Source: Alloprevotella sp. | Lineage (GTDB): Bacteria > Bacteroidota > Bacteroidia > Bacteroidales > Bacteroidaceae | Assembly (NCBI GenBank): GCA_017476545.1 | Contig: JAFUZP010000024.1 | Coordinates: 1-62,494, forward strand | Direction: 5' to 3' | DNA: 62,494 nt | In this document: one piece after another, positions 421-55,100 of the stretch | Numbering within the stretch: the first letter of the stretch is position 1 | Layout of the letters: every line of letters begins with the position of its first letter | Position numbers and translations under genes: made by a program | Notes under the pieces: generated by a model | The model's input: only the letters and a program-made list of their open reading frames with translations | Database searches by the model: none | What the model was told of the DNA's origin: nothing

Positions 421-1305
421 ATGGAGAAGATACTGAAAGTACACCGCGTGGGCGACTATGCCCGCTACATCGGCGCGCCGGAGCTGCATCCGCTCCTCTC
501 CGTGATACACTATGACGAGTTGCAGCACTGCCGCCATTCGCTCAACAACTACGACGTCTATGGCATCTTCATCGGCGACGAGACGCTGGAGAACCTCACC
601 TATGGTCTCCACACCTACGACCTCCACCGCCATGCCCTGATGTGCGTAGCCCCAGGGCAGATTGGCGGCAAGGCCGACACGGGCGAGGAGATACAAACCA
701 AGGGCTGGGCACTGCTCTTCGACCCCGAACTGCTCCATGGTACGCCGCTCGGCCAACGCATGGCGCGCTACACCTACTTCTCCTACAACACGAACGAAGC
801 CTTGCTCATGACCGAGGAGGAATATGCCACCATCGTCAGCCTGTTCCAGATGCTGCGCCACAGCGCCACAGCCGGCCCCGACGCCCTCCTCGTAGCCCAC
901 CTGCACCTCGTCCTCGAATACATCGCCCACTTCTACGCCCGCCAACTCTCCAATGCCGCCGCCGTGAGCAGCGACCTGCTGACGCGCTTCGAGAACCTCC
1001 TGGAGCGATACTATGCCGACGGCACATACCGCCGTCTGGGGCTCCCCACCGTGAAGTACTGCGCCCGGGAACTCTGCCTCTCGCCCAACTACTTCGGCGA
1101 CCTCATCCGCCAGCAGACCGACGACACCGCATCAAATGCCATCCGCCGTTTCCTGATGCAGCGTGCCCGTGCCCTCCTCATGAGCGGTGCCACCGTCAGC
1201 CAGACTGCCGCGCAACTCGGCTTCGACTATCCTCAGCACTTCACGCGCCAGTTCCGCAACTTCTTCGGCCTCTCACCCACAGCCTTCCTTAAATCCCACC
1301 GCTGA
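421..1305 (+). CDS. AraC-family transcriptional regulator
   Basis: 294 residues. The C-terminal ~100 residues are an AraC/XylS DNA-binding domain with two helix-turn-helix units: YCARELCLSPNYFGDLIR and, after an arginine-rich linker, VSQTAAQLGFDYPQHFTRQF, ending in the family's FGLSPTAF motif. The N-terminal ~180 residues look like the cupin-type sensing domain common in Bacteroidales AraC proteins. It is convergent with the SMR transporter gene at 1390, and the two share a hairpin terminator, so a direct regulatory link is possible but unproved. The effector is unknown. Confidence 0.85.
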   Translation: MEKILKVHRVGDYARYIGAPELHPLLSVIHYDELQHCRHSLNNYDVYGIFIGDETLENLTYGLHTYDLHRHALMCVAPGQIGGKADTGEEIQTKGWALLFDPELLHGTPLGQRMARYTYFSYNTNEALLMTEEEYATIVSLFQMLRHSATAGPDALLVAHLHLVLEYIAHFYARQLSNAAAVSSDLLTRFENLLERYYADGTYRRLGLPTVKYCARELCLSPNYFGDLIRQQTDDTASNAIRRFLMQRARALLMSGATVSQTAAQLGFDYPQHFTRQFRNFFGLSPTAFLKSHR

Positions 1306-1330
1306 GGGGCACAATTATATATAAAATAAA

Positions 1331-1369
1331 AACAGGCGCGAGCTGCAAACATAGCAGCCCGCGCCTGTT
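1331..1369. terminator. Bidirectional terminator between AraC gene and SMR gene
   Basis: A hairpin with arms AACAGGCGCG(A)GCTGC and GCAGC(C)CGCGCCTGTT around a 7-nt loop. On the minus strand it is followed by TTTTTATTTTATATATA, so it fits best as the end of the SMR transcript. It sits in the 84-bp convergent gap. Confidence 0.75.
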
Positions 1370-1389
1370 CCGTAGCGCGGAGCGTCCCC

Positions 1390-1713
1390 TCACGTCAGTG
1401 CCTTCAGCCCCACGATGGAGGCGATGAGCGTTGTGGTGAAGAACAGTCGCCAGAACGTAGCCGGCTCGTGGAAGAGGAGGATGCCCAGCAACACCGTGCC
1501 CACAGCCCCGATGCCTGTCCACACGGGATAGGCCGTGCCCAGCGGCATCGTCTGCGTCACCTTGGCCAGTAGCCCCATGCTCACAAACGTAAAGAGCAGG
1601 AAACCGCCCATCCAGCACCACCACTCCGCGCCAACTGCGGCGCGCGCACGGCCCAGGCAATAGGTGAAGCCCACCTCGCAAAGCCCCGCAACCGTCAATA
1701 GAATCCAGTTCAT
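1390..1713 (-). CDS. SMR-family small multidrug/guanidinium exporter
   Basis: 107 residues with four transmembrane helices, the normal size of the SMR family. The essential membrane glutamate is in GLCEVGFTYCLG (Glu13), and the helix 3 signature reads MPLGTAYPVWTGIGAVGT. The GTAY.VWTGIGAVGT form is closer to the SugE/Gdx (guanidinium exporter) branch than to EmrE, but the distinction is from memory of signatures. It works as an antiparallel dimer exchanging protons for a cation. The promoter -7 box on the minus strand may be TACCTTTG at 1786-1779; no good -33 TTG is present at the expected distance. Confidence 0.85.
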   Translation of the reverse strand: MNWILLTVAGLCEVGFTYCLGRARAAVGAEWWCWMGGFLLFTFVSMGLLAKVTQTMPLGTAYPVWTGIGAVGTVLLGILLFHEPATFWRLFFTTTLIASIVGLKALT

Positions 1714-1834
1714 AACGTATCAGAAAATCCTTCCCTGAGGGCTGCGGCAATACCCGGCGTCTCCTTCCGAAGGCGATGCAAAGGTACTGCTTTTTCATTA
1801 GAAGTGGAGACCGGCTCCCATCATTTCCGTTTGA

Positions 1835-2545
1835 TTACATTGCTTTGATTGTGTGGTACACTTTATCTAAAAACAGGACGTAATCGTTTAGGATGACGGA
1901 ACGGCCAAACGTATCGTATGCGTGAGATGAAAGGGTTAGGGGATAGGTCTGCGTAATGTAGTAAGCCCTATATTCATCCAACGTTGCCAGCCGTTCGTTG
2001 TCGGGTATGTGTACAACATAGATAAGTGTCTTATTGGGCGCATGAAGATAAACGGCCACATCGTCTTGGGACAGTGTAATATATTTGGAAACATTGTGCT
2101 TTGTGAAGGTTTCCCACTTCTTGATATTCTTTTGCCGGTCGTAGTAGGGCAGTTTGTCTAGGATGATGAATACCTGAAAATAAGGGAAATCATTGCAACG
2201 AATATTTGCCGTTTCGCCAAGCATATTCTCAAAGTAATTGTTTGAATTCTGCGAATAGTTTTGCATTACGAACTTCACTGCAATGCCTGCGATAGGCTTC
2301 CCATCGCGTTTCACGGTTATGTCCACTTTCTTATTGATATATCTGCCAGTTATTTCCGCTTCTTTATCGCGCTGAAAGCCTTGAGACCATATTTCATAAC
2401 CAGAGCCCAAAAGTTCTGAGAGGTCTTGGGCTATTGCTCCATGCAAAGGTTTAAGTTTTGCCGTACTTCGCGATGTACCGCAGGAAAGGAACTCGTGGAA
2501 GGATTTAGAAATCACCCGTAAAAAGGTCTCGTTGCTGTGTGTCAT
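1835..2545 (-). CDS. Type II restriction endonuclease-like protein (PD-(D/E)XK)
   Basis: 236 residues from ATG at 2545 (MTHSNETF). It follows the adenine methylase and overlaps its 3' end by 41 bp, the usual layout of a compact restriction-modification pair. Residues around KKVDITVKRDGKPIAGIAVKF give a plausible PD-(D/E)XK core: Asp in VDI, then A-V-K on the next strand. The stretch after it (MQNYSQNSNNYFENMLGE) resembles nucleases that track cognate methylases. A longer form using a TTG at 2563 is possible but less likely. The recognition site cannot be read from sequence; the nuclease role rests on context and the weak motif. Confidence 0.65.
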   Translation of the reverse strand: MTHSNETFLRVISKSFHEFLSCGTSRSTAKLKPLHGAIAQDLSELLGSGYEIWSQGFQRDKEAEITGRYINKKVDITVKRDGKPIAGIAVKFVMQNYSQNSNNYFENMLGETANIRCNDFPYFQVFIILDKLPYYDRQKNIKKWETFTKHNVSKYITLSQDDVAVYLHAPNKTLIYVVHIPDNERLATLDEYRAYYITQTYPLTLSSHAYDTFGRSVILNDYVLFLDKVYHTIKAM

Positions 2546-4082
2546 TGTGATAGAACTTTGCAAGGTTATAGTTTAGGTAGTGTTCCAGCTCTTTGGAATT
2601 AAACGTGTAGTAGCCACCACTTTTATACTTCTTCAGCAGGCTAACATATCGTATAAAGTTGTCGCTGACAAGTAACTTCTGGATATCATCAAAAGGAATC
2701 TCTGTCAATATATATAGGCCACTATATACGCCGTGTCCTTCTGGTACATGATTAAGTTTGATGCTTTTGACGTCACGTATGCAGGTATTGATAGCATATT
2801 TGTTCTTGTAAACATCAAGTAGGGCTTGCGTGCGTCCATATAGATACCACTCTGGGAAAACGTCTTCCTTACGTCCCTTTAGCAATGTGGTTTTGCTGTC
2901 ATTAAGATATTCGTGGATGGCAGGTATCGCATCAAGAGTTTCTTTAGATAGTGGCTTCCCTGATTTATCATAAGGGTAAAAAGCTTTATACCATTTTCCC
3001 GTTGAGGCTTTAATGGTGGGGATGACAAACTCTTTGAAAGGAAAGTCCTGACGAATGAAAACTTTGTCCGCCAGTGTGGCAAATCCGTTCTTGACAGATA
3101 CGTATGAAGTGCCTCCATATAATAGAATATTTCGCAGTCGCTCTAATGTGGCAGCATCAGCAAGATAAATCTCGCCCGCAATGAAAGCGTCTTCAAAGTA
3201 GATTGCCTCAACATACTTTATTACCCGTTCTTCTCCAAGATAACGCCCATAAAGAAAGCTATCTGTACGCTCTCCTTTTTGAAACAGCGATATGAGTGTG
3301 TAGGTCGTAGCGTTGAAGGCTTGGTAATGTTCCAAATCAATGAGACGTAATAGATTACGTTCTTTTCGGATGTAGTCTCGCAAATGTTTCCCTGCTAAAC
3401 TGTTGAGCCACGAACTGGGGGTGATATAACACAGCTTTCCGCCATTGGCGAGCATTCGTAAACCAATTTCAAAAAACACGAGATATAGATCGGTCATTCC
3501 GCCGTCTGCAAAATGAAATTTCCTTACAGCTGTGTATGTGTCTTGCAGATTGTGAACACGGACATAAGGAGGGTTGCCCACCACGAAGTCCATCTTTCCG
3601 TCATACTTACAGACGTTTATTGTGTCATCATAGAGAATGTCCCAATCAATGTTCTCAATGCCGAACTCTGCTGCTACAAGTTTTAGATTCTGTAAACATT
3701 CGCCATGGGCTTCCACGTCAATTTCTATGCCGTGAATGTAGGTCCGTAATTCTTCTTTAAGAGTGGTTGTATCAGAGGAACGTCGCAAGGAATCGGCTCT
3801 GCCGCTTCTCTCGTCGAAATAATCGGCTCTGCCGCTTGGCTTGTCCAAGTAATCGGCCCTGCCGCTTCGCGCGTCGAAGAATGCTTTGCAGTAACGTCGT
3901 ACTACCTCGCAGAGAAAGGCCCCGTTGCCACAACTATTGTCAATTATATGCTTTTGTAAGCATGCTTTACCTACATATCCGGCTGTGTCCAAGATGTCAC
4001 AAACCAAATACGCCGGCGTAAAGACCTGGCCGGTCTCTTTTGTCTTATCCATTTCCACACTATGCGCTGTGCGTCGGCTCAT
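2505..4082 (-). CDS. N6-adenine DNA methyltransferase of a type II R-M system
   Basis: 525 residues; an internal start at 4052 (MDKTKETGQVFTP) matches the usual start of this family and may be the true one. Motif X/N-terminal is GQVFTPAYLV, the AdoMet-binding motif I is IIDNSCGNGAFL, and the catalytic motif IV is NPPY in DFVVGNPPYVRV. A target-recognition region fills the C-terminal half. Between motif I and the acidic motif II strand (HGIEIDVEAHG) lie three in-frame 10-residue repeats beginning SGRAD, encoded by a 30-bp tandem repeat at 3791-3880 (reported separately). The downstream endonuclease gene overlaps by 41 bp, so the pair is translationally coupled. Confidence 0.9.
   Translation of the reverse strand: MSRRTAHSVEMDKTKETGQVFTPAYLVCDILDTAGYVGKACLQKHIIDNSCGNGAFLCEVVRRYCKAFFDARSGRADYLDKPSGRADYFDERSGRADSLRRSSDTTTLKEELRTYIHGIEIDVEAHGECLQNLKLVAAEFGIENIDWDILYDDTINVCKYDGKMDFVVGNPPYVRVHNLQDTYTAVRKFHFADGGMTDLYLVFFEIGLRMLANGGKLCYITPSSWLNSLAGKHLRDYIRKERNLLRLIDLEHYQAFNATTYTLISLFQKGERTDSFLYGRYLGEERVIKYVEAIYFEDAFIAGEIYLADAATLERLRNILLYGGTSYVSVKNGFATLADKVFIRQDFPFKEFVIPTIKASTGKWYKAFYPYDKSGKPLSKETLDAIPAIHEYLNDSKTTLLKGRKEDVFPEWYLYGRTQALLDVYKNKYAINTCIRDVKSIKLNHVPEGHGVYSGLYILTEIPFDDIQKLLVSDNFIRYVSLLKKYKSGGYYTFNSKELEHYLNYNLAKFYHNDTQQRDLFTGDF
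3791..3880 (+). repeat. Three tandem 30-bp palindromic repeats inside the methylase gene
   Basis: Units start at 3791, 3821 and 3851. Each begins AATCGGCYCTGCCGCTT and contains a small stem whose arms differ but stay paired: CTTGG/CCAAG in unit 2 and CTTCG/CGAAG in unit 3. Each unit encodes exactly ten residues on the minus strand (SGRADYLDKP, SGRADYFDER, SGRADSLRRS). A single diverged copy lies at 7568-7598. Confidence 0.85.
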
Positions 4083-5658: not shown

Positions 5659-5686
5659 GTGCAGTCTTTTACTTCATCGCAGGACT
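5659..5686 (+). promoter_or_regulatory. Bipartite element GTGCAGTC-N15-GGACT, copy 1
   Basis: GTGCAGTC at 5659-5666 and GGACT at 5682-5686, separated by 15 bp. GGACT ends 17 bp before the start codon of the sigma-barrel gene. The same two blocks with the same spacing occur at 7420-7447 and 7613-7640. The spacing is close to that of an ECF-type -35/-10 pair; this is an inference from three copies. Confidence 0.55.
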
Positions 5687-5703
5687 TAATAGGTAGAGAC
5701 GGT

Positions 5704-7416
5704 ATGCTGACGATGGAGATAACGAGGCTAATAGAACGGTGCAGGCAGGGGGATGAGGAAGCCCTCGGAGAACTGTATAAGGCATACGCCCAGCGGATGA
5801 GGGGCGTATGCCGGCGTTATATCAGAGATGAGCAGGCGGTGGAGGATGTGCTGCACGATGCTTTTGTGATTATCTTCACTTCGTTTGACAGGCTGCGCGA
5901 TGTCGGGCGGGCAGAGGCGTGGATGACGGCTATTACGAGAAATGTGGCTTCCAGATACAGGGACCGTATGGTGGCGTTGCCTATGATGTCGCTCGATGCG
6001 GTCGCCGAAGCGGATTTGGCGGTTGCCGGGGACGAGGATAGGGACGTGAGGGGCATCCCGCTGAGCGAGGTGATGAGTATGATAGACAGACTGCCAGAGG
6101 GCTATGGGCGCGTGTTCCGCCTTTCGGTGTTCGAAGGGATGTCGCACAAGGAGATTGCCGCCGCGCTGGGCATTGAGCCACATTCGTCATCTTCGCAACT
6201 GGCACGGGCGAAGAGGATGCTGCGAGAGATGATGCAGCGGTATGGGGTGGCTGTGATTCTGCCAGCCGTTGTACTCCTCACTTTCTTCTTGCTCAGGAGG
6301 AGCGAAACTGATGTCAGCAAGGACGACGCGGCAGCCCGGGCAAAGTGGAATGTATCGCCGACCGACCGACCGCAGAAGCCAACGATTGCCCGAAGGTTAC
6401 GGGAGAAGGACGGAACGTCGGGCATGCAGCCTGCATACCGCGCAAGTGCTATCGCCGCGGACACGTTGCAGATGGAAATCGCACAGATAGTCGATAGCGT
6501 GCCGGACATGGCGGCTCAGGATCAGACGATTGCCGACACCTTGTCAAACGATACGGCGCGGACCTTGCGTAGCACCCAGCTGCCGCGTCGCGATATGGCC
6601 GAGTTGATGCCGGAGAAGCCTGCCGTTAGCACCTGTCGCCAGCAAACGTGGGCCGTGGACGTTGCATCAAGCATCGGCACTTTTGGGGAGCAGGATTATT
6701 ATCGTCCGTATGGTTTCACGGAAACACCGACGTTAGCCCCCTCTGGCGAACTTCCGTCGCCTGTCACCTTCGAGAACTGGAGCGACTATGCAGCCTTCTT
6801 GGCGGACAATCCCGACGACGGCAGCAGCTATAGCCGAAGCGTTATTATGAACATTGCACTGAATAATGCCGGAGATGCACAAGGTACAGGTACCGACAAG
6901 ATTGTCCGTAAGAGCCACCACTACATGCCCGTCAACTTCTCGTTTGCGTTGAAATATCAGCTGAACAATCGTTTCGGATTAGAAACCGGTCTGAGTTACA
7001 GCAGGCTGAAATCGGATTTTGAGATGGGTTCAAACGGTAATACTATCAATGAGCAGCAGACCATCCACTACCTTGGCATCCCCGTGAAGGGCATCTATAA
7101 TATATATTATAGAAAGGCGTGGAGCCTCTACGGAAGTCTCGGCGTTACCACGGAGATACCTCTCTACTCGCCGCTCAACACAAGTTACTACTTGCACGGC
7201 ATGTTGGAGGCTACCGACAAGTCAACCATCCACGCTCCATGGCAGTGGTTGGTAGGTACGGGTCTTGGCCTGCAATACAATTTCACTCCCAACATCGGAC
7301 TGTTCGCAGAACCAAGCCTGCAATACTACATTCCGACGGGTGCACAAATTGAAACATACCGCTCAGAGCATCCGTTTACGTTCTCCTTGCCCATAGGCAT
7401 CAGATTTACGTGGTAA
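5704..7416 (+). CDS. ECF sigma factor fused through a membrane helix to an outer-membrane beta-barrel domain
   Basis: 570 residues from ATG 5704 (a second ATG is at 5713). Residues ~5-85 are sigma region 2, with AVEDVLHDAFVIIF; residues ~125-185 are region 4, with LPEGYGRVFRLSVFEG and the HTH MSHKEIAAALGIEPHSSSSQ. Next comes a single hydrophobic segment VAVILPAVVLLTFFLL, a ~190-residue low-complexity region rich in D/T/A, and a C-terminal ~190-residue domain of alternating strands (LETGLSYSRLKSDFE, IHYLGIPVKGIYNIYY, LFAEPSLQYYIPTG) ending in the aromatic IRFTW typical of outer-membrane barrels. A cytoplasmic transcription factor and a barrel in one chain is unusual; the frame is open throughout. 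Possible readings are proteolytic release of sigma or a misplaced fusion. Confidence 0.85.
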   Translation: MLTMEITRLIERCRQGDEEALGELYKAYAQRMRGVCRRYIRDEQAVEDVLHDAFVIIFTSFDRLRDVGRAEAWMTAITRNVASRYRDRMVALPMMSLDAVAEADLAVAGDEDRDVRGIPLSEVMSMIDRLPEGYGRVFRLSVFEGMSHKEIAAALGIEPHSSSSQLARAKRMLREMMQRYGVAVILPAVVLLTFFLLRRSETDVSKDDAAARAKWNVSPTDRPQKPTIARRLREKDGTSGMQPAYRASAIAADTLQMEIAQIVDSVPDMAAQDQTIADTLSNDTARTLRSTQLPRRDMAELMPEKPAVSTCRQQTWAVDVASSIGTFGEQDYYRPYGFTETPTLAPSGELPSPVTFENWSDYAAFLADNPDDGSSYSRSVIMNIALNNAGDAQGTGTDKIVRKSHHYMPVNFSFALKYQLNNRFGLETGLSYSRLKSDFEMGSNGNTINEQQTIHYLGIPVKGIYNIYYRKAWSLYGSLGVTTEIPLYSPLNTSYYLHGMLEATDKSTIHAPWQWLVGTGLGLQYNFTPNIGLFAEPSLQYYIPTGAQIETYRSEHPFTFSLPIGIRFTW

Positions 7417-7419
7417 TCG

Positions 7420-7447
7420 GTGCAGTCTTTTCCATGTTCGATGGACT
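7420..7447 (+). promoter_or_regulatory. Bipartite element GTGCAGTC-N15-GGACT, copy 2
   Basis: GTGCAGTC at 7420-7427 and GGACT at 7443-7447, again with 15 bp between. It overlaps the start of the decayed ORF at 7441 and begins directly after the sigma-barrel stop codon. Confidence 0.5.
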
Positions 7448-7569
7448 CTAACGACTGCTACCCGCAGCAATTCATTGACGAGGAACTGACGAAGAACAAC
7501 CGCAACAAGCGAGTCTAGCAATGGAAAGCGTTTACCGATTATCTGGATAGTAAAGGCAAACTGAAGTAA
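7441..7569 (+). pseudogene. Decayed coding remnant with in-frame stop
   Basis: Read from ATG 7441 the frame gives MDSNDCYPQQFIDEELTKNN, then NRNKRV, a TAG at 7516-7518, and continues QWKAFTDYLDSKGKLK to TAA 7567-7569. The composition is protein-like on both sides of the stop and the end is clean, so this looks like the tail of a gene with a nonsense change. I do not recognise the protein. Confidence 0.5.
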
Positions 7570-7612: not shown

Positions 7613-7640
7613 GTGCAGTCATTCGTTGCAATTTTGGACT
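7613..7640 (+). promoter_or_regulatory. Bipartite element GTGCAGTC-N15-GGACT, copy 3
   Basis: GTGCAGTC at 7613-7620 and GGACT at 7636-7640, 15 bp apart. As in copy 1, GGACT is followed within 15 bp by TAG and TAGAGA. It lies 33 bp before the radical SAM start codon and overlaps the inverted repeat at 7621-7670. Confidence 0.55.
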
Positions 7641-7670
7641 TTATTAGTAGAGAACAAAATTGCAACGAAT
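7621..7670. repeat. Perfect 16-bp inverted repeat before the radical SAM gene
   Basis: ATTCGTTGCAATTTTG (7621-7636) and its exact reverse complement CAAAATTGCAACGAAT (7655-7670), 18 bp apart, ending 3 bp before the ATG. In RNA it would form a stable stem next to the start codon; in DNA it could be an operator over the third bipartite element. Confidence 0.8.
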
Positions 7671-7673
7671 TGT

Positions 7674-8792
7674 ATGTATAGTATTTATGATTACGCCTAT
7701 AATGGGCTGCTCTATCTGAACAACATCATGCGACCTCGCCACAAGCGGCTTTCGCAATTAATGATTTACTCGACAACCGCCTGCCAGTCACGCTGCAAGC
7801 ACTGCAACATCTGGCAGAAACCAGTTGAACACCTATCGCTTGATGACATCCGAAGAATCATGCAAAACAAGTGCATCACCAAACGGACAACCGTAGGTCT
7901 GGAGGGTGGCGAGTTCATCCTGCACCCGCAGGCTGCGGAAATTATGGCGTGGTTCAGCAAGCATCATCCGAACTACACGCTACTGTCTAATTGTCTCGCG
8001 CCCCGTCGTGTCATAGATGCTGTCCGTCTCTATCAGCCCCGGCACCTGTACGTCTCTCTCGACGGTGGCCGCGAGACTTACCAGCGGATGCGAGGGCGTG
8101 ACGGCTACGACCGCGTGATTCAGGTGGTGGAGGCGTTGAAGGACGAGGTGCCGTTGTCGCTGATGTTCTGTCTGTCTCCGTGGAACACTTTTGAAGATAT
8201 GGCTTATGTCATAGACGTTGCCAAGCACTACGATATAGACGTTCGCATCGGCATCTATGGAACAATGGCTTATATGACGGCCTCACCCCCAACCCCTCTC
8301 CAAGGGGAGAGGGGAGTAGATAGTATTGTCGTTGATTCTTCGTCTTGGAAGTATTCACTCCCCTCTCCAAGGGGAGAGGGGTTGGGGGTGAGGCTACAAT
8401 CCACTTCAGAGAATTTCGACTTTGTAGCACTCTACGACCAGTGGCTGGGTGGGCATTTACGTTTGCGCTGCCAAAGCATAATGAGTTGCCTCGTCGTGCA
8501 TAGCAATGGTGACGTACCGCTCTGCCAGAATCTTGAAGTGGTGCTGGGGAATATCCATGAGCAATCTCTCGACGAGATTTTCAACGGTGCATCGGCATGT
8601 CAGACCCAATGCCAGTATTCCAAGGACTGCAATGACTGTTGGATCAACTTCCACCGCAAGTATGACATCATCCTCGTAAGGAACTTGGAGCGACTGCTGC
8701 CCAAATGGCTTATCGAGAAGTTCTACGGCCAATACCAATGGACGGCAGACCCAAAGACGACTTATCGCAAACATCTAAAAGCAATACAATGA
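7674..8792 (+). CDS. Radical SAM protein with SPASM domain, carrying an inserted repeat
   Basis: 372 residues from ATG 7674. The radical SAM cluster motif is TACQSRCKHCNIW (C-x3-C-x2-C), followed by a GGE motif in TVGLEGGEFILH. The C-terminal SPASM-like region has CQSIMSCLVVHSNGDVPLC and a cysteine group CQTQCQYSKDCNDCW, suited to auxiliary Fe-S clusters. Residues ~203-241 (SPPTPLQGERG ... SLPSPRGEGLGVR) are encoded by an inverted-repeat element at 8281-8393 that keeps the frame and is not a family feature. It overlaps the next gene by ATGA (8789-8792), so the two form an operon. The substrate is unknown; SPASM enzymes modify peptides, proteins or sugars. Confidence 0.85.
   Translation: MYSIYDYAYNGLLYLNNIMRPRHKRLSQLMIYSTTACQSRCKHCNIWQKPVEHLSLDDIRRIMQNKCITKRTTVGLEGGEFILHPQAAEIMAWFSKHHPNYTLLSNCLAPRRVIDAVRLYQPRHLYVSLDGGRETYQRMRGRDGYDRVIQVVEALKDEVPLSLMFCLSPWNTFEDMAYVIDVAKHYDIDVRIGIYGTMAYMTASPPTPLQGERGVDSIVVDSSSWKYSLPSPRGEGLGVRLQSTSENFDFVALYDQWLGGHLRLRCQSIMSCLVVHSNGDVPLCQNLEVVLGNIHEQSLDEIFNGASACQTQCQYSKDCNDCWINFHRKYDIILVRNLERLLPKWLIEKFYGQYQWTADPKTTYRKHLKAIQ
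8281..8393. mobile_element. REP/MITE-like inverted repeat inserted in frame
   Basis: The left end reads CCTCACCCCCAACCCC from 8281 and the right end GGGGTTGGGGGTGAGG to 8393. Each end continues into its own hairpin CCCCTCTCC-AA-GGGGAGAGG. The 34-bp arms are essentially perfect and flank a 45-bp unique centre. Elements of this sequence type are widespread in Bacteroidota intergenic DNA; here one lies within a gene and leaves it open. Confidence 0.85.
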
Positions 8793-9820
8793 TACAAGCA
8801 CTTATCAGCCGATACAAGCGGATGCGTACAGAGCGTTTCCTGCGTCAAACATATCAATATCAATATGCCTTCGTGGGCATGGGCCAACACTCGCTCACCA
8901 ACCTTTATCCCGTACTGCATTACCTTGGTGTACCGCTGAAATACATCTGTGTCACGTCAGAAAGGAAGGCACGACTGATAGAACGGAAGTTTCCTGGTGT
9001 AAAAGCCACGGCCTCGCTCAACGAGATTCTGAACGATGAAGCAGTTAAAGGCATTTTCGTTTCAGCCTCTCCAACAGCCCATTTCTCTATAGCCTCGCAA
9101 GTGCTTCGCAGTGGCAAGTCGCTTTTCATCGAGAAACCACCCTGCCAAACATTGGAAGAACTCAACACGCTCATAGATTTACAGCGACTCCACGGCTCGC
9201 CCGTCGTCATGGTCGGCTTGCAGAAACGCTATGCCCCAGCCGTCCAACTGCTAAAGAGTCTTCTCAAAAAGGAGCGCCTAATCAATTACGATTTGCATTA
9301 TCTCACAGGGGTATACCCAGAGGGTGATGCTCTTTTAGACCTCTACATCCATCCTCTCGACCTTGTCTGCTTCCTGTTCGGCAAACCTGAAATCCTTGCC
9401 TACCGTCAGATTGCCAAAGATTCTTACATCCTCATGCTCCGTCATCCCCACATCGTCGGCACGCTCGGACTCTCCACAGCTTACTCATGGACTGATGCAG
9501 AAGATTTGCTGAAGATATGCACCTGTTATGGCAGTTATCGCCTTTCACAAATGGAAGAACTCTCTTTTACCCCTTCGTCACGGACTGTCTCAGGCATCCC
9601 GATGGAAAAATTGCGTCCTCACAAAAAAACTGTAGAATACCTCTATCACAACAATAGTTCCACCCCCATATTGTCGGCCAATCAGGTCTATTCGCAAGGA
9701 TATTACAATGAATTGGCCACTTTCGTGGAAGCCGTTGAACATCATGATAGCCACGTCATTTCTACTCTCGAAACAATAAAGGACACTTATCGGTTGATGG
9801 ATAATCTGAAAAGAACTTAA
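8789..9820 (+). CDS. Gfo/Idh/MocA-family oxidoreductase
   Basis: 343 residues. The start ATG 8789 overlaps the radical SAM stop as ATGA. The N-terminal Rossmann domain has the strand YAFVGMGQHS (a G-x-G variant), VKGIFVSASPTAHFSIA and the family EKP motif in GKSLFIEKPPCQTLEEL; the C-terminal half is the usual alpha/beta catalytic domain with YIHPLDLV, where the His may be catalytic. These enzymes oxidise or reduce sugars or related alcohols with NAD(P). Translational coupling to a SPASM enzyme suggests a two-step modification pathway; the product cannot be named. Confidence 0.85.
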   Translation: MIQALISRYKRMRTERFLRQTYQYQYAFVGMGQHSLTNLYPVLHYLGVPLKYICVTSERKARLIERKFPGVKATASLNEILNDEAVKGIFVSASPTAHFSIASQVLRSGKSLFIEKPPCQTLEELNTLIDLQRLHGSPVVMVGLQKRYAPAVQLLKSLLKKERLINYDLHYLTGVYPEGDALLDLYIHPLDLVCFLFGKPEILAYRQIAKDSYILMLRHPHIVGTLGLSTAYSWTDAEDLLKICTCYGSYRLSQMEELSFTPSSRTVSGIPMEKLRPHKKTVEYLYHNNSSTPILSANQVYSQGYYNELATFVEAVEHHDSHVISTLETIKDTYRLMDNLKRT

Positions 9821-37614: not shown

Positions 37615-38208
37615 ATGACACAGTTACGCTTGCGCGCCGACGAAGAGTTGGTAGCGCTGTACGCTTCCGGAGACAACAGTGCGTTCGACGTGCTGCTGGA
37701 GCGCTACAAAGACAGGCTTTACTCCTACATCCTTTTCATCGTACATAATAACGATGTTGCGGACGATATCTTCCAAGATACGTTCGTGCGGGCGATTGTT
37801 ACCCTCCGGCAGGGAAAATACACGGAGACGGGTAAGTTTTTCCCATGGCTCACGCGAATTGCCCATAACCTCATCATAGACCAATTCCGTACGGAGCGGA
37901 ACGAGAACACCGTGTCCAACGATGAGTCGGAAGGCGCGCTCTTCAACAACGCTAAGCTGGCTGATGTCAGCGTGGAGCAGCAGATGGTGGACGAGCAGAC
38001 TTTGGCCGATGTGCAATGTCTGATGAACCACTTACCTGATAACCAGCGTGAAGTGCTCCAGATGCGCTTCTACCAGGACCTTTCCTTCAAGGAAATTGCC
38101 GAGCAGACGGGGGTGAGCATCAATACGGCACTCGGGCGTATGCGCTACGCGATACTCAATATGCGGCGGATGATGGAGAAAAACAATATCTCTCTCACGC
38201 TGGGATAA
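37615..38208 (+). CDS. ECF-type RNA polymerase sigma factor
   Basis: 197 residues. Region 2 has NSAFDVLLERYKDRLYSY and VADDIFQDTFVRAIV; region 4 has LPDNQREVLQMRFYQDL and the HTH SFKEIAEQTGVSINTALGRM. No anti-sigma gene follows, but a 49-codon ORF begins 78 bp downstream within the same transcript. Expressed from a housekeeping-type promoter with a long leader, so it is probably controlled after transcription. The regulon is unknown. Confidence 0.92.
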   Translation: MTQLRLRADEELVALYASGDNSAFDVLLERYKDRLYSYILFIVHNNDVADDIFQDTFVRAIVTLRQGKYTETGKFFPWLTRIAHNLIIDQFRTERNENTVSNDESEGALFNNAKLADVSVEQQMVDEQTLADVQCLMNHLPDNQREVLQMRFYQDLSFKEIAEQTGVSINTALGRMRYAILNMRRMMEKNNISLTLG

Positions 38209-41308: not shown

Positions 41309-44300
41309 ATGACCCATCAAAGAGATATGGAGTTTACGGGGTTGCAAACCATCGTGCCTATCGGCGCACACTGCTCTACACAACATCTGCGCCAGGTTGC
41401 GGCGGAAGCGAAAGGCGAATGGTGTGCCCTTCACGTTTCAGATAAAGAATTGCAATTGGGTTACCGCTGTTTGGAACGCCTTGCGCAAGCGGCAGATGCG
41501 GTAGGGGCAGTGATGGCTTATAGCGACTACCGCGACCCCGAACCGCATCCTGTGATTGATTATACCGCAGGAGCCTTGCGCGATGACTTTGACTTTGGTG
41601 GGCTGTGGTTGGTGCGTTCGACACATTTGCGCGCGTTTGCGGCATCGGCAGCGGACTGGCATTTCATGGCACCCTACGCCCTACGGCTGTATTTGAGCCG
41701 GGTTGGCGAAATCTTTCACTTGCGCGAATACCTCTATACGCAGCAGGAAACAGACCTGCGCCGTAGCGGTGAGAAGCAGTTTGACTACGTTAATCCGCGT
41801 AATCGGGAGGTTCAGTTAGAGGCGGAGCGCGTTTGCACGGAGCATCTCGCGGCTGTGCGGGCACTTCTAGTCCCCGATGAGTTTGACGACCTTCCGGAGG
41901 ACACGGCGGAATACCCCGTGGAAGCCAGCGTAATTATCCCCGTCCGCAACCGGGAGCGGACAATTGCGGACGCCATCCGCAGTGTGCTTGAACAGCAAGC
42001 GCCATTCGCTTTTAATGTCATCGTGGTGGACAACCATTCCACCGATGGCACAACTGCCGCCGTCCGCTCCTTTGGTGATGATGGACGCGTGGTGCATATC
42101 GTTCCGGAGCGTGGTGATTTAGGCATTGGCGGCTGCTGGGATTTGGCTGTACGTTCGGAGCATTGTGGACGCTATGCCGTACAACTTGATTCCGATGACC
42201 TGTATAGTGCACCGGATGTGCTGGAGCGCATTGTCTCGGCCTTTCGGGAACAGAACGCTGCCATGGTAATCGGGAGTTACCGCATGGTGGACTTTTCTTT
42301 GCAGACGTTGCCGCCCGGACTTATTGACCATCGTGAGTGGACGCCTGACAACGGCCGTAATAATGCCCTCCGCATCAACGGCCTCGGCGCACCGCGTGCC
42401 TTTCGGACAGATGTCCTGCGCCGTATCGGTTTTCCCAATACGAGTTACGGCGAAGACTATGCGCTCGGACTGGCTATATCCCGGCGTTATAGAATCGGGC
42501 GCATATACGATGAACTTTATCTTTGCCGCCGTTGGGAAGGCAATAGCGATGCGGCGTTGAGCATTGATAGCCAGAATAAGAACAACTTCTACAAGGATAG
42601 TTTACGCACGATGGAACTCCGTGCCCGCCAGACCATGCTTCGGCGTTGGCGTCGCCGTACTACCCAGGGTGAGGTACAGGACTTTATAACGCGGCAACTG
42701 GAGCGTTGGGACGAAGTGCATCAGCGTTTTGAGGACTTGGGAAGTGCGGTGCAGACCCGCCACCTGCCCATTGATGGCGACGTACGGCTGGCCGTGCAGC
42801 ACAATCCGCGCCGCATCGGTTCAACGGCAGCCCGTGTCACGGCTGTAGAAATAGCCGAACGTCCTTGCTTCCTCTGCGAACGCAACCGACCTACACCGCA
42901 GCAAATCAGCCTACCTGTTGAGGGGCATTACGAAATCCTTGTGAATCCGTTTCCCATCCTGCCCAACCATCTCACAATCCCTACGCGCCGCCATCGTCCC
43001 CAAAGCATACTGCACGGAATGGCTGAGGTAATGAACCGCCTCGCCTGGGCTTTGCCAGACTTCTTGCTTCTGTATAATGGTCCGCGTAGCGGGGCATCAG
43101 CCCCCGACCACGCGCATCTGCAAGCTGGAGTGCGGGGACTCGTACCGCTGGAGCGCGACTGGAAACTTTACGAGGCCCAGTTGGAGAAAGTTTTTCCCCG
43201 GACTTCTGCTGAACAAGTGGCCTTTGAAGAGAAAGGATACACGGCCCGGCATTTTGGCATCTACCGTTTACGGGGTTATGCCTGTCCTGCCATCGTCGTG
43301 CGCGGCGAGCGTCCAGGACATCCGAAGTTACTACTGACGGCGCTCTCCGTCCTTCCGGTTACAGACAGTGGGGCGGATGCTGAGCCGGACATCAACATCT
43401 TGACATGGCGGCAGCGGGATGAGATTCTTGGTCATGACGAGTTAGTTTCCGTTGTTTTCCCGCGCAGGAAACATCGTCCCGATTGTTACTTCGCCGAGGG
43501 TGGGGAGCAATGCCTCGTTTCCCCGGGTGCGATAGATATGGGCGGCCTGCTGATAACGCCCCGTGCTGAGGATTTTCAGAAGCTGACGGCCGCTCGTGCC
43601 GCTTCCATCCTGCGCGAGGTGACCCTCTCGGAGACAGATTTGCAGCGCGCCCTTGAACAGCTTTCCCCTATGGCTGGGACAGGGGGGGCTGACCCATCCC
43701 CGGATCGTGAAGACGGGGCGGATGAGGAGGTCGAGCCCCGTGTGTCCGTTGGAATTCTTTCGGCGGAGGAAATCCGTTTCACCCTCAATGCGCCATACAC
43801 AGCCAAAGGGGCGGAAGTTACCGGTTCCCAAGTCGCAACCTTCAGTGAGGGCGGTATTCTCTGGCAGGGTAATGTTTACAGCGAACTGGCTTTTACGCCG
43901 GTTTCCTCTGAATCTGGGGAGATGCAACCCACTTTCACACTGGAGGATGTCATTATCGGGCGTCGGTTCCATTGGGAGCGTCGTGAGGCGCAAACGTTCC
44001 CGGGTAAGTTGCGACTGCTGGTGGATGAAGGGAAAATAACCGTTGTGAATGAAGTGCCAGTTGAGGACTACTTGAAGAGTGTCATCAGTTCTGAGATGAG
44101 CGCAACCAGTAGTATGGAACTTCTGAAAGCACACGCAGTCATCAGTCGTAGCTGGCTCTTCCACCAGCGTCAGCGGCGTGAGCAGGGCGCGGGCGGTGAT
44201 TTTTCCAGCCTTGAGCGCAGGGAGGATGGCTACGTCCGTTGGTACGACAGCGATGACCATGCCCTCTTTGATGTCTGTGCCGATGACCACTGCCAGCGTT

Positions 44301-45040
44301 ATCAGGGTGTAACGCGGGCTGCTACGGAGGCTGTGGCTGCCGCAGTGGAGGCGACGCGCGGCTTGGTGCTGGCCTTGTCGGACGGCGAGGTGTGCGATGC
44401 ACGTTTCTCAAAGTGCTGTGGCGGGCTGACGGAGCGTTATTCCGCTTGCTGGGAGCCGCGCGATGTTTCCTATTTGCAGCCGGTTCTTGATGCGGCGGGA
44501 CAGGTGGAGGGGGAAACCGCGTCTGCCGCCATGAGCGAAGAGGCGGCACGTGAATGGGTACTGTCACGTCCCGAAGTTTTCTGCAACACGGGCGATACCG
44601 ACTTGCTGCGTCAGGTGCTGAATGATTACGACCGCGAGACGGCCGATTTTTTCCGTTGGCGTGTTTCCTACACCGCCGCTGAGCTTTCCGACCTTGTGCG
44701 TGAGAAGACGGGAGAAGACTTTGGCACAATAACAGACCTGCAGCCATTGGAGCGCGGGGCGAGCGGCCGTATCACCAGCCTGCGCATTGTGGGCACGGAG
44801 CGCACGCTGACGGTGGGAAAAGAGCTGGAGATACGCCGTATTCTTTCCCCTTCCCACCTGCGTAGCTCTGCCTTCATCGTGGAGCGGACACAGGATGGCT
44901 TCACGCTGCACGGCGCGGGGTGGGGCCACGGCGTGGGGCTCTGCCAGATTGGGGCGGCGGTGATGGCCGCCAGAGGCTACGATTACAAATCAATCCTTAC
45001 ACATTATTATAGAAATGCAGTCCTCAAGAAGCAGTATTAG
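41309..45040 (+). CDS. Three-domain protein: GT2 glycosyltransferase, GalT/HIT-like (DUF4922), SpoIID/LytB
   Basis: 1243 residues. Residues ~205-430 are a GT2 domain: [30 protein letters not shown] and [11 protein letters not shown]. Residues ~480-790 are a HIT/GalT-like domain with CFLCERN (~519), [15 protein letters not shown] and the active-site type HxHxQ in PDHAHLQAG (~600). Residues ~830-1243 are a SpoIID/LytB domain: [13 protein letters not shown] (~919), [11 protein letters not shown] and the terminal [19 protein letters not shown] (~1204). There is no signal peptide or membrane helix, so it is predicted cytosolic, odd for SpoIID, which normally cuts peptidoglycan outside. The stop overlaps the AmpG-like gene by 26 bp. 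An alternative start at 41327 is possible. Confidence 0.88.
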
Positions 45041-49177: not shown

Positions 49178-52100
49178 TTACCTGTTGAGCATGAAGCGGA
49201 TACTTATGCCGAAGTCCTGTGTAGTAGTGGGGTAGGAGGACGATGTGAGCAAAGGCGTATTCGTCTGCCTGTCGTAGTAGGCGGTGAGGGTGAGGTACTT
49301 GGAGAGCGTGTAGTCTGCACTGAAGCTGATTTGCAGGGCACGGTTTCCGCTGGTGGCCTGTGTGAGGCCGGTGCGGATGTCGCGGTTGAGGGCCGCCTGA
49401 TTGCGCAGTGAGAAGTCGAGACGCAGATTGAGGTCGTGGCTTACGCCGTCGCGGCTCTTGCTGTTGCTGCGGCTGTTCCTGGTCAGGTCGGGCTCTTCCT
49501 CGATGTCTCCGAGGCTGCGGCGTCCCTTGGCGGGACGTTCGCGCACGGTACGCTTGGCTTGTCCGAACCGTAGGTCGGCAATTTTGTATCCGAGGCCTAT
49601 GACGAAGTCGTTGGAGCGGGTCTCGCTGATTTGTTGGTTGGTCATGGAAAGGGTGACGACGCGCGTCTTGCGGAGTTCTACCTTGGCACTCAGGTTGTTG
49701 AGGAAGGTCATGTCAATACCGAAGAGTGGGGAGAAAGTCTCGTTGATGCTGACGGTGGAGATGTCGTACATGGAGGAGGGGACGGGGTAGCCGGTGGTTA
49801 CGTCGCTGACGAAGCCGAGGCCGCCCATGTACTGCTGCCATGAAGTGAAAGTGTTGTATGCCCCGACGCTGTATATGCTTTTGTATGCGTGGTTGAGATT
49901 GAAGCTTTTGAACGTGCGCTTCATGCGGCGGAGTTTGGCTAGTCCGCCGTAGGATAGGCTCCAGTTGGGGAGAATGCGCGCGAGGGTGGGGAAGATGTCG
50001 AGCTTTCCGTGCGCGCCGTTGGTGTAGGCGTTGAGGAAGGCGGGTATCATTACGTCGGCGCTGTAAGGGCTGACGGGGCCTACTTCGGGGTCGTAGAGCC
50101 CTTGTGCGGCGGCACCGTTGTATTGCGCCTGCACAAGTTGCCTGTAATACTCCAGCGAGCCCCGGAACTGCTCGAAAGCGCGGGAGGAATAACCATTATC
50201 AGCATTTCCGACGCGCTCAAAGGCGGTGCGGATGGAAATTGTTGTCTGCGTGAACGAGCCTGTCTGTGTGGTTGGCATTCCGCTGAACATGTATTGTATG
50301 CTTTTAGCCCTATTTTGGTTGCGCGAGGCGGAGAGGTCTATCTTCAGGTCGCGTGCAGGTTCGAGGGTCGCACGGATTTGTAGGTCTTCGTTAAGGTTGG
50401 TCGTGGCGGGGGTAATGATGCTGTCGGCCATAAGGAGCCAGCCGTTGTCAGCGGCACGGCGGAGGTAGTTCTCGCCAACCGCACCGAAGGCGAAGTCCAG
50501 TCCGGGTGCAAAGGCCCCGCCGGAGCGTTGTCCGAAGATGTCACCCACTTGGGGGAGGAAGCCGGGCACGTTCATGTTGAACTTATTGGAGTAGGAAACA
50601 TTGATGCTGCGCACCATCATGAGGAAACGGGCGGCGTATTGGCTTACCTTGTACCAGGTCTGGTCTTCCTTACGGCGCTTGGGACGCACGGTTAGCTTGA
50701 GCTTGATCGTGTCCTGCGTGAGGATTTCTATTTTGTTATTGTCTATCGGCTTGTAACGCAGGCGCACCCGGTTGCCGTCGGCGTCAATGGCGGTTACGAC
50801 CAGCTTCTTGCTACGCTGGTTGTGCTGCACGGTGACGGTGGTGTCGGGCATGAGTTGCACTTCCTTTTCAAAGTTTTTCTTCTCCGGCACGGGCTTGCTC
50901 TTGTTGTTACGGGAGGTTACGCGGCTTGTGGAGGAGGCTGAGAACTTTTTGTTGGTGTTCTTGAGGAAAGGTATGTGGTTGTAGAGCGTTTCCATGTTCA
51001 GCCGCGCGTTTCCGGAGAGGTCGCGACTGTTGGCAATGGTGTGGCCCATAGAGGTGCCGTTGTCCAGCTCGGCACCGCGCGTCCAGTTGTAACTGGAGCG
51101 GAAGGCTACGTCACTTGTCAGCCAGTCGAACAGTGGCAGTTTGTTGAGGGGTAGTTTCCACGTGGCTTCAAAGTTTTGGGCATACTTAAGTGGTGTGCCG
51201 AGCTGCCGGATGCTTTGCCATACGGAATCTTTCCAGGCCGTGTAGCGGTCGGGATAGAGGTCTTTATTGATTGCCGTATAGGGCTGCTCCACTTCGGCGT
51301 TAGTTCCACTGCTGAATGATGCGTGGAGACTCTTCGTCAGGTCCCAGCGCACGGCGAAGGAACGGTTCCAGAGGAAATCAGAACTCCATGTGAGCGGGAT
51401 GCTTTGGTTCTCGAGATTTTCCATGTCCCGCTCTTGTAGTTCGTAATAAGAGCGCGTTATGTCGGAATTGAACGTAAGGCTCTGCGGCACGTAGTCTATG
51501 CCGAATTCTTTCAGAATCTTGAACCAGTTCGACTTACTCTTGATGAGATTTTTGAACGGGGTAAAGGTGGGGAGATTCGGGGAGTAGCTGTAGTTGACGC
51601 TCCATTTCCAGTTTTGGTCCTTTTCCCATACGGTAGTTTCGCCTGTGGTATGGCGTGTGCTGTGGGCATAGCCGAAGGTGAAGTTCGCAGGGTCGTATGG
51701 CATCGGCGTACGCTTGTTTGTCTGGATGTTAAAGCGTATGCCGGTGAGCGAAAGGTTCTTGGAAACGACAACGCGGTCGGCAATGTTGTTGAGCGAGTCC
51801 TTCTGTTCCTTCGTAATCAGTCCGTCCAGTGCGTCCTCCATGGGCATGTCCGTGTCCAGCGGATTGTACTTCGGGACGATTTTCTCCTTGGAATAGGAGT
51901 AGTAGAGGGGGGCGTTGAGCTTTACCTTATCGGGCAGGAATTTACCGAGTTGCACGTTGGTCGTGACGCTGTATTGGTACAGGTTGTCGTCTCTCCGCTG
52001 CATGACGCTCTCTTCCAGCCCGCCGAAGCCTTCTGTTTCCATGTGGCCGGTAAGGTCCACCGTGGCTACATCGGACAACTTGAGATTGAGCTGCGCCTGC

Positions 52101-55100
52101 GCGGCCATACCGCCGCTGTTCGCGAAGTCCTGCAATCGGAGCTCGTTGGCCCAGACTTCCACGTTCTGGACTTTGCGTGAGTTGTTGCGCACGCCTATCA
52201 TAATGGTGCGTATCTCGCCGAGCGATGGGTTGCCCATCACGCTGACCTTGTTGGCGGGGCGTTGGGGATCGTATCGCGAATACAGCTGTCCGTATGAGGC
52301 CTGCCCGAGCGACTTTTCCCTGTTGCGGTCGCGCTTCGTGTCGGTCAGGAGGGAGAGGTCGATGTCCAGCATGTTACTTTCGGGCCAGACGGCGCGTGCG
52401 CCGGCGTTGGAGTTGGCGTATTTCCCCGGCGGGGTTACCTCCAGCGGTATTTCGTACTCGTAGAAATTGGACTTGTAGTCCGACCCGAAGCGAATGAATA
52501 TGGAGGTCTGTCCGTTTTCCACGGCCTCCTGTCCTTCGAGGGAGTTCGCATGGGCAAACATCTGTATGTGGCGGTAGCGGCGCAGGTCGAGAGTTGTGTT
52601 CTTGTAAACGGCGCGCGCCTCTCCGCTGGCCAGGTTCTTCACGGTCAGCGACAGGGCTTCCTCGTTGTTTTCCAGCAGTTGGTCCTGCCCGGGGTCGATT
52701 ACGCGGCTGATGCCCGGCGGGATGACGTAGTTTACGGGCAGCTTTTCGTTGTTTTCCTCAAAGTTCACGCTGCTCGGCTCCAGCGTACCGCTTTGGTCGG
52801 CGGACTTTCCTGCGTACAGGGACTGCTCGTAGGCGCGCCATTCGCCCCGGACGAGGTTGAGCGTCCCAAGGCGGAGCACGACTGGCTCTTGGAAGCCCGT
52901 CATGAACATGCGGATGAAACGTATGGAAGAGAAGTCCGAAAGGTTGCCGACGTTACGCTCGTAACTCTCTATGGGGATGCGGAAAAGGTACCAAGTCACT
53001 TCAGGCTTGCTGCCGTCGCGACGGGTGGGGTAGGCTACGCGCGTATCTATAATATAGTTACGGCCGACTTGCATCTCCTCGGGGGCGATGCGGACGCGGT
53101 ATTGGTAGTACTTCTCGTACTCGTTGAGGGTGTAGTCCTGGTTGATGTCCTCCACGTCGGGTGTCGTTTTGTAGGCGGTGGAGTAGCTTTCGGGGGAGCT
53201 GTCTGCGTCGGCACTGTTCCCGTTCGGGTTGTTTACGTACTTGTAGCGGTCCAAGATGCTCCGTCGCTCTTCATCATAGTCCGAGCCACGGAAGTAGTGG
53301 TAGCGGTCAGCAGACGGTGCGGCCTGTATTGCTTCATAGACTTCCGGCTTTACGCGCCCTTGGATCTGTTGCAGGAAGTCGCGATAGATGCCGAAGTCTT
53401 TCTCCTCGCTGGACATAAGGCCGTTGTAACCTACGTCCTGACGTTCGCGGGAGCCGCTGCTTGTATTGAAAGCATAGGTAACGGTGTTCTGGTTCGGCAC
53501 CCGTCCCCATATCGTCTCCGTGTAGAGGGCAGGATTCCCGTCGATGGGCAGTCCGCTCTCATAGAACTTTTTTCCGTCCTTCAGTATATCCTCGCTTATT
53601 TCTCCCAGGTTGAAGTAAAGGTCGCCGCTGAACGTGCGTCCTTCTGCACGGGCTTTCATAAACGGGTCCATCATCCAGAACTCGATATACTCGATGTTGC
53701 TCTCCTCAAAGTCGCTTTGGTCGAGCTTTCGCATCATGCCACCCCAGCGTTTCTCGGGGTTATTCAGGTGTCCGTCTTCGTCAAGGTCCGGGTCAAGGTT
53801 ATATGGACCGCGCTCATTGGGGTAGTAGGCTAGATTAAGGACGTCTAGCGTGGAACTCTCGCGATAGTTAATCTTCTTGTTCGGGAAGAGTTCTGACTTG
53901 TAAACCTCTCTTACGTCATCGTCCGAGAGCTGTGCGAGGTCGCCCTTGATGTGTCCGGGTGCAAGGGACGAACTGCGGCGGGTGAATAGCGGGTCGATAT
54001 AGTACCATGACAGCAGGGCGCGGTTGTATCCATAGCGGGGGTCGTTGGAATATTGCGACTCCGGGAACATGGAAGGCACGCTGGAAATGCTCCATTCTTT
54101 CGGGTTGGAAATGTCTATGTCGGAGCTGGCGCTCTCGAAGTCGTCCAAATATGAGGCGTTTCCCTGTGTCCCCTTATTTTTTCCCGCGATGAGATGGGCG
54201 AACTCCGCGCTGAAGTTGATGCTGGAGGGCTCTGTCGCGTGGATGAAGGGGAGTTTGTCAAGCATATTGGTCAGTAACTGGCTCTCCTTCTTATAGGCCA
54301 TGTTGAGTCCCCAAAGGGTATTGTTAAGCGCCTCGCTGCCCATGGACACTTTTGTCGTGAGTGGCTTTTCCCCGAGGTGCAGTAGCGTACCCCCAACCAT
54401 GAAGTCCTTGGAAAAGTCGTACTCCCAGTTCATGCCGACCATCGTCTTGCGCTGCATTCCCCACGACGTATTGCTTTCCAGGCTCACGTTGATGGCTGTC
54501 CCGGCGTCCAGCAGACTTTTGTTCACTATGCGCACGATGCCGTTTGAGTAATCAACGGTGTAGTCCGCCCCCTCGGTGAGCGTAATGCCTCCGGCGGTGA
54601 CTCTGACAGAGCCCTTCGCCACGTTTGTGGCACCCAGCGATATTTCGTCCTTTCTGGTGGCTTTGTATTGTCCTGTGATAACGTACTTGTCTTTTTCCAC
54701 TATCTGCTTCGCGACGGTCTTGGTGGAGTCGTAAAGCTCTTGGAATACGTATTTATCCGCGATGGCATCGTCGCCGATGACTTTCCGCATATAGCTGCCG
54801 AACGGTTCCACGGAAGTAAAGTAAATACGCCCCTCGTTAGGTTCTATTGTGTATCCCGGTACATAGTCGAAGTAGGCGTTCGGGTTGCGCTTGTTGTTAT
54901 TGTCAAGGCGGTCCAGCCCGAGGAGTTGTATGAGTTTCCTGTCCTTCAGACTGGCTTCGGGCAGGTAGGTGAGGTACACACCGCTCGTGTCGGATAGGAA
55001 TTTGATGTCGAGACGGAATTTTTCCTGCTGCACGTTGTCCGCTCCGAGCGCGTACACGTTTTTCATCATCAGGTCCCAGTTGCCTTGCCGTGGTGTGTTA

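Follow-up and report, generated by a model that had tools for sequence, protein, structure and literature searches.

The closest described counterparts of the locus considered here are the two-gene systems of the Bacteroidota in which a sigma factor (Das) is paired with a dual membrane-spanning anti-sigma protein (Dma). In the accessible part of their description, the Dma proteins combine an anti-sigma binding domain, a transmembrane (TM) helix, a disordered tether and a β-barrel, and their cognate sigma factors belong to ECF21 (PMC13088901). The same source reports that loss of Dma1 relieves the repression of Das1 and that the phenotype of a dma2 deletion requires Das2; there the signal is offered as a hypothesis only and the release step is left undescribed. 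A further member, Dma3 from the bt_2778-2779 locus of Bacteroides thetaiotaomicron (Pardue et al. 2024 as cited in PMC13088901), has no cognate sigma gene adjacent to it and its N-terminal domain is stated to act as its sigma factor; deletion of dma1 or of dma2 induces dma3, which is dispensable for the vesiculation of these mutants (PMC13088901). One-chain sigma factors with a TM helix and a periplasmic or extracytoplasmic part are also represented by IutY of Pseudomonas putida (ECF243) and by ECF48, ECF52 and ECF53 (PMC8999054). IutY is a sigma factor fused to a TM anti-sigma and is activated by Prc and RseP (PMC5411451); in the accessible text of PMC8999054 it is named as the only one-chain sigma factor with experimentally characterised proteolytic activation.

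The window, i.e. the whole 62,494-nucleotide stretch of DNA from the gut bacterium Alloprevotella sp. that was analysed, contains at 5704-7416 on the forward strand a frame of 570 uninterrupted codons that encodes an ECF sigma factor, a TM helix, a tether and an outer-membrane barrel. As Dma3 is in print (PMC13088901), this architecture is already known and the gene is another of that kind: going by the published description, both have an N-terminal sigma domain on a Dma-like chain and no cognate sigma gene beside it. The Dma1/Das1 and Dma2/Das2 pairs of B. thetaiotaomicron are likewise comparable by description in possessing a sigma factor together with a TM segment, disordered tether and barrel, as is EcfO-Reo of B. 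fragilis and Phocaeicola vulgatus, where a sigma factor works with a partner spanning all compartments; however, all three are described as gene pairs in which an anti-sigma N-terminus precedes the TM segment. The IutY-like proteins differ in that their extensions are described as anti-sigma-like, the accessible text of PMC8999054 making no mention of an outer-membrane barrel on the same chain, and IutY itself works with a separate receptor, IutA (PMC5411451). The sentence on Dma3 in PMC13088901 is the only mention of a Dma-type fusion recovered from the literature, which is a weak absence, since the search extended neither to the PNAS paper of 2024 nor to most subscription titles. Added here, as judged without that paper, are the extent of the clade, another, separate fusion, the disappearance of the anti-sigma segment from a chain whose tether retains its length, and a candidate regulon.

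Domain architecture of the fused protein

Sequence profile analysis of the fused protein recovered Sigma-70 region 2 at residues 24-86 (5773-5961, forward strand; PF04542 Sigma70_r2, 1e-10), Sigma-70 region 4 at residues 122-173 (6067-6222, forward strand; PF08281 Sigma70_r4_2, 4e-13) and an OMP_b-brl_2 domain at residues 406-531 (PF13568, 6e-11), all three exceeding their curated Pfam cut-offs. Thus, both halves that an earlier note had recognized from the letters alone, namely a sigma factor with regions 2 and 4 and a barrel-like C-terminus ending in IRFTW, were recovered by profile searches within a frame that is open throughout, and its proposal that sensor and sigma factor form one polypeptide is supported at the sequence level. 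Apart from PF07638 (Sigma70_ECF), regions 2 and 4 are the only sigma regions above cut-off, and their presence in a chain lacking regions 1.2 and 3 is characteristic of ECF sigma factors; the NCBIfam model for this group, TIGR02937, scores 70.3 bits against a cut-off of 42.9, and the solved chains best matching the protein are sigma factors, several of them named ECF. No FecR-type (cell-surface-signalling) domain is present among the eight Pfam families that match the protein at E-values up to 1. In an alignment of ten fused proteins from the same genus, both sigma-region models are matched by all ten and OMP_b-brl_2 by nine, and an HSSSSQL motif in region 4 is invariant.

The strongest hydrophobic segment within residues 1-260 starts at residue 180 (best 19-residue mean 2.16) and defines a TM helix at residues ~180-198 (6241-6297, forward strand), which begins about one residue past the end of the sigma profile and has a proline in its core. 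The single hydrophobic segment of the earlier note is thereby retained, but its placement at residues 195-211 is about 15 residues too far along; the prior report of this layout was also unknown to that note's reader. The TM helix is followed by a weakly conserved periplasmic tether of about 200 residues (~199-394; 6298-6885, forward strand; dN/dS 0.25) and by the outer-membrane β-barrel domain (residues ~395-570; 6886-7413, forward strand; PF13568/PF13505), which terminates in LPIGIRFTW. These profiles and the hydrophobicity point to a barrel fold for the C-terminal domain and to an N-in/C-out topology of the chain.

In an alignment of 42 sequences from the clade of the window's gene, Met177 never varies and Met176 hardly does, as might be expected if an internal start near these residues gave rise to a separate TM-barrel protein, in which case the fusion would be only apparent and the halves would act as partners. 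However, just three of the ten same-genus proteins (those of the window, L005 and L006) keep both methionines, L007 retains the first, and the other six retain neither. Further, no stop separates the halves in any of the 80 loci from named genomes described below, and an internal start is in our estimation very unlikely.

The genome to which the window belongs (G000; 1.98 Mb, 80% complete) encodes a single fused gene. Its three other matches are sigma-like sequences of 23-28% identity in which the barrel half is unmatched. Within the window the next-nearest sigma match lies at 37648-38202, and no separate cognate sigma gene adjoins the fused gene. A candidate second barrel beside a sigma gene in this genome (L117) was set aside, as its long ORFs do not start in the manner of Dma proteins. 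These observations bear on the alternative that a separate, unlinked anti-sigma silences the sigma domain and that the barrel serves in structure or transport rather than in sensing. Split Dma-like proteins with an anti-sigma N-terminus do coexist with the fused gene in other genomes (e.g. G006, G041 and G009), but at the thresholds used no split Dma-type sigma factor was found in the 80% complete genome of the window, and we give this alternative little credence.

Relationship to two-gene systems and phyletic spread

In the split relatives of the fused gene, a sigma factor, mostly of ~180-190 residues, is followed by a barrel protein of ~400-490 residues. The latter displays an N-terminus resembling MKEEW...PPEGLWE.I, a TM segment near residue 50, a tether and a barrel homologous to that of the fused protein, an order that agrees part for part with the published Dma description, as far as the accessible text gives it (PMC13088901). 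Named examples include two pairs in Bacteroides finegoldii and one in Phocaeicola massiliensis. Given that the split relatives comprise a sigma factor and a protein of Dma layout, a chain reaching from the cytoplasm to the outer membrane has published precedent.

FastTree trees were computed for 38 loci labelled fused and 35 labelled split from the sigma part (171 columns), the barrel part (172) and both combined (343). In these the fused sigma factor is related to the sigma factors of split Das/Dma-like pairs, and the fused loci form one clade with supports of 0.996 (sigma), 0.999 (barrel) and 1.0 (both), with two exceptions. The first, L012 from G007, is an interrupted fused copy that had been labelled split. 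The second, L150 from G204 (1100-2944, reverse strand), is a fused gene with sigma, TM, tether and barrel in the same order and the TM segment right after the sigma domain, which is nested in the split clade and hence represents a separate fusion. It was detected in one of 45 genomes searched in its genus (E-values up to 1e-30), so that the second fusion rests on one assembly. Thus, judged from sequence comparisons, the fused gene is the fused counterpart of the two-gene Das/Dma systems. Stop-to-stop frames had raised the suspicion of fused proteins of 600-650 residues in genera with large genomes; six of the seven such loci (L148-L154) proved to be split pairs running on, leaving L150 as the only true extra fusion among them, and a presumed second instance of L150 in G281 was rejected as a split pair.

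Comparison of the two layouts indicates what the fusion removed. In 117 distinct fused ORFs the TM segment starts a median of 1 residue past the end of the sigma profile (range -2 to 9), whereas in the split set a median of 51 residues precedes it (n=35, made up of 34 split proteins and the interrupted L012, the starts taken for L022 and L186 probably lying too far upstream). A P..W motif of the anti-sigma segment occurs in 32 of the 35 split-set proteins as against one of the 117 fused ones, where only the few residues between sigma domain and TM could be tested and a slightly different pattern was used. The distance from TM to barrel is similar, with medians of 201 residues in the fused proteins (n=117) and 190 in the split set (n=35). 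Taken together, these data indicate that the Dma-type anti-sigma segment is gone and that the length of the tether has been kept. A proline in the TM core is found in 99 of the 117 fused proteins versus six of the 35 split-set proteins, counts that are not independent on account of the relatedness of the sequences. Outside the set of 80 named loci it is present in 32 of 49 fused proteins, and it is absent in the subclades around L155/L013 and L162; hence it offers a clade-weighted hint only of an intramembrane cleavage or hinge site.

The conjecture that similar fusions occur in other Bacteroidales is borne out by a wide recurrence of the architecture in the family. In the same genus (58 genomes including that of the window) the full fused frame is present in nine of the 57 others (G039, G024, G046, G057, G006, G011, G041, G043 and G009), and a tenth (G007) carries a fused gene whose frame is broken by a TGA where the sigma domain meets the TM segment. 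Among named GTDB genomes, represented by the best 80 of their 369 candidates, neither a stop between the halves nor a consistent two-gene arrangement, which the earlier note regarded as evidence against a fusion, was encountered: all 80 loci have both halves in a single ORF. These are all metagenome-assembled or uncultured Prevotella, Prevotellaceae, Bacteroidaceae or Bacteroidales, many from the rumen or other ruminant gut. In the family sample, at least 58 of 251 genomes, by a hand count that includes that of the window, have both halves in one uninterrupted frame; in two of these (G278 and G139) the first 40-50 match positions are missing, and L150/G204 is not counted. Of 30 loci fetched from this search, four of which overlap earlier sets (L119, which is the window itself, L120, L127 and L128), 29 are single ORFs, the exception being L133 (G201) with a TAG. 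As one open frame spans both halves in all 80 named loci and in no fewer than 58 of the 251 genomes of the family sample, the fusion is no assembly accident. No intact fused gene was found outside the family in an order sample of 198 genomes (E-values up to 1e-60) or a phylum sample of 296 genomes (up to 1e-42), cut-offs that would miss divergent separate fusions, L150 itself having scored only 1.6e-49; the sole full-span match outside the family (G400) is a split pair. On plasmids, 134 records matched the query, though in no record did a single place cover 80% of it; the three matches that were opened (H1, H2 and H4) are split pairs.

Median dN/dS values (Nei-Gojobori; up to 203 pairs from 42 sequences) are 0.115 for the sigma domain, 0.149 for the TM segment, 0.251 for the tether and 0.127 for the barrel. 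Both halves are thus maintained, with purifying selection on every part. Nevertheless, four copies of the fused clade are interrupted (L012/L236 in G007, L227 in G059, L228 in G128 and L231 in G201), the break being a stop or frameshift that is located where sigma domain and TM segment meet or within the tether; of these, G059 and G128 are 99% complete genomes. Such copies show either that the barrel half is open to loss or that it is misassembled on occasion. Such copies, and the state of the adjoining lipoprotein gene in the window, itself a remnant (see below), are what one would expect of a degenerate relic, i.e. a decayed Das/Dma pair merged by loss of the anti-sigma start, with a sigma domain that is constitutively active or dead. 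The low dN/dS of sigma domain and barrel, the single well-supported clade across many genera of the family and the retention of the upstream element all speak against such decay, which we consider most unlikely.

Gene neighborhood, promoter-like element and predicted mode of action

Downstream of the fused gene, on the same strand, lie the interrupted C-terminal part of a gene for a ~190-residue lipoprotein (7444-7569), a radical SAM/SPASM protein (7674-8792, start codon inferred; PF04055, PF13186) and a Gfo/Idh/MocA-type oxidoreductase (8789-9820; PF01408), whose gene overlaps that of the radical SAM protein by 4 bases. An ORF similar to the lipoprotein remnant occurs in 56 of the 80 named loci and, where examined, is flanked by the fused and radical SAM genes. 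A radical SAM/SPASM gene follows in 61 of the 80 named loci (55 of the 68 whose downstream DNA extends for 1.5 kb or more) and a Gfo/Idh gene in 51 (47 of the 59 in which it extends for 2.6 kb or more), and the pair also accompanies distant fused lineages (L007, L008, L011, L159, L165 and L166). With the radical SAM gene absent in 13 of 68 loci, its link to the fused gene is strong but not universal. The split pairs compared here share the homologous sigma factor and barrel but differ in context, in that one of the two B. finegoldii pairs, though not the other, adjoins a NigD-like gene, while in most named loci the neighbors of the fused gene are radical SAM and Gfo/Idh genes. Support for linking the fused clade to NigD was lacking, the intervening ~190-residue lipoprotein having no Pfam match in the two loci tested.

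An element of the form TGCAGTC[A/T]TT-N13-GAC... immediately precedes the fused gene and recurs ahead of the radical SAM gene with its spacing unchanged. The first copy (5660-5697, forward strand), with TGCAGTC as the -35-like and GGACTTAATAGGTAGA as the -10-like part, ends ~6 bases before the ATG and is a predicted autoregulatory promoter. The other full copy, at 7614-7651 on the same strand, precedes the radical SAM gene, which would accordingly be a member of the predicted regulon. Between them lies a degraded copy (7421-7443, forward strand) reading TGCAGTCTTTT...GGACTCTAA and diverging thereafter; relatives have such a copy before the lipoprotein gene. Allowing up to 3 mismatches, the pattern has two sites in the 1.98-Mb, 80% complete genome, both at this locus, and the reversed-pattern control has none. 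In a scan of 20 further genomes, 19 of which were chosen for carrying a fused gene, 13 have a site and seven have none. Sites with 0-1 mismatch number 23, and each belongs to the fused locus except for one that precedes a partial copy on a separate contig (G039 C142). Sites with 2-3 mismatches number six; two of them precede further fused genes and the remaining four are situated elsewhere. The reversed pattern matched eight times over these genomes. The distant fused lineages among them mostly lack the exact -10 part.

The core TGCAGT lies within 105 bp upstream of the sigma start in 72 of 76 loci of the 80-locus set, where shuffling predicts 1.7. Among the remaining distinct fused loci it does so in 31 of 38 (0.8 by shuffling), and among the split loci in 21 of 36 (0.5 by shuffling); in most of these 21 it reads TGCAGTATTTTTG. 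Its position, spacing and co-occurrence suggest that it is the -35 part of a promoter recognized by the sigma domain itself. A reading of the upstream [AG]TGCAGTC as the start of a leader peptide was dropped, as frame and stops vary between loci. The -10-like part of the copy before the radical SAM gene is overlapped by an inverted repeat (7624-7667, forward strand) with 12-base arms at 7624-7635 and 7656-7667, which is kept through changes of both arms in relatives. At 67 distinct GCAGTCATT sites, some unrelated to the element, the arms match at 11 or 12 of 12 positions in 39 and comprise 18 distinct pairs, with CG/CG, GG/CC and CT/AG changes in step; shuffled controls never rise above 10. 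The repeat could be an operator, or form an RNA hairpin in read-through transcripts.

These observations are probably best explained, albeit with some reservation, by a one-chain dual membrane-spanning ECF sigma factor of the Das/Dma kind that is held at the membrane, released by proteolysis and then activates its own locus. The chain would be inserted N-in/C-out in the inner membrane, with its barrel assembled in the outer membrane, and the membrane-held sigma domain would transcribe poorly or not at all. The trigger might be an outer-membrane event or ligand sensed by the barrel, or a failure of the barrel to assemble, upon which a periplasmic protease may cut the tether and an intramembrane protease of the RseP type would then free the sigma domain. 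The freed form is predicted to bind TGCAGTC-type promoters before its own gene, the small lipoprotein gene (here a remnant) and the operon of the radical SAM protein and the oxidoreductase. Published precedents for this reading are the repression of Das1 by Dma1, the requirement of Das2 for the dma2-deletion phenotype and the processing of the one-chain IutY by Prc and RseP. The genome of the window encodes one M50 intramembrane protease; as such proteases are present in all 14 control genomes, their presence discriminates nothing. Alternatively, the tethered protein might be active without cleavage, the state of the barrel altering the tension of the tether or the exposure of the sigma domain, with RNA polymerase recruited to the membrane at neighboring promoters. 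This would suit a predicted regulon confined to a single locus in cis, the absence of any remaining anti-sigma segment to be destroyed, and a tether that is the least conserved part and has no obvious fixed cleavage site. Against it, a TM segment about one residue after region 4 would leave little room for contact with -35 DNA and RNA polymerase, and IutY is reported to be released by Prc and RseP (PMC5411451, in its accessible part); activity in the tethered state is, in our view, rather unlikely.

The fused protein, for which proteolytic release is our preferred reading, would represent about the most compact outer-membrane-to-gene signalling device that can be drawn, with sensor, wire and transcription factor in one chain. 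With the anti-sigma part gone, it poses a clean question, namely whether membrane tethering by itself silences a sigma factor. We tentatively advance a broader proposition, to which we attach somewhat less than an even chance: anchoring by a TM segment placed on region 4, without an anti-sigma domain, might suffice to silence an ECF sigma factor, an outer-membrane event would free it for one local cluster, and this layout may have arisen at least twice from Das/Dma-like pairs with the anti-sigma part lost each time. The predicted single-locus regulon makes a reporter assay easy, and the fused, split, separately fused and interrupted copies provide a natural comparison set for the Dma mechanism.

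Other genes of the window

Upstream of the fused gene, on the reverse strand at 1835-4082, an Eco57I-type restriction-modification methylase overlaps a 241-residue ORF with no Pfam match, which might be its restriction partner. A 1243-residue ORF at 41309-45040 (forward strand) combines a family 2 glycosyltransferase, a DUF4922 and a SpoIID domain in one chain. At 49178-56665, on the reverse strand, a 2494-residue protein shows SprA_N matches; we take this SprA-type protein to be the outer-membrane translocon of a type IX secretion system.
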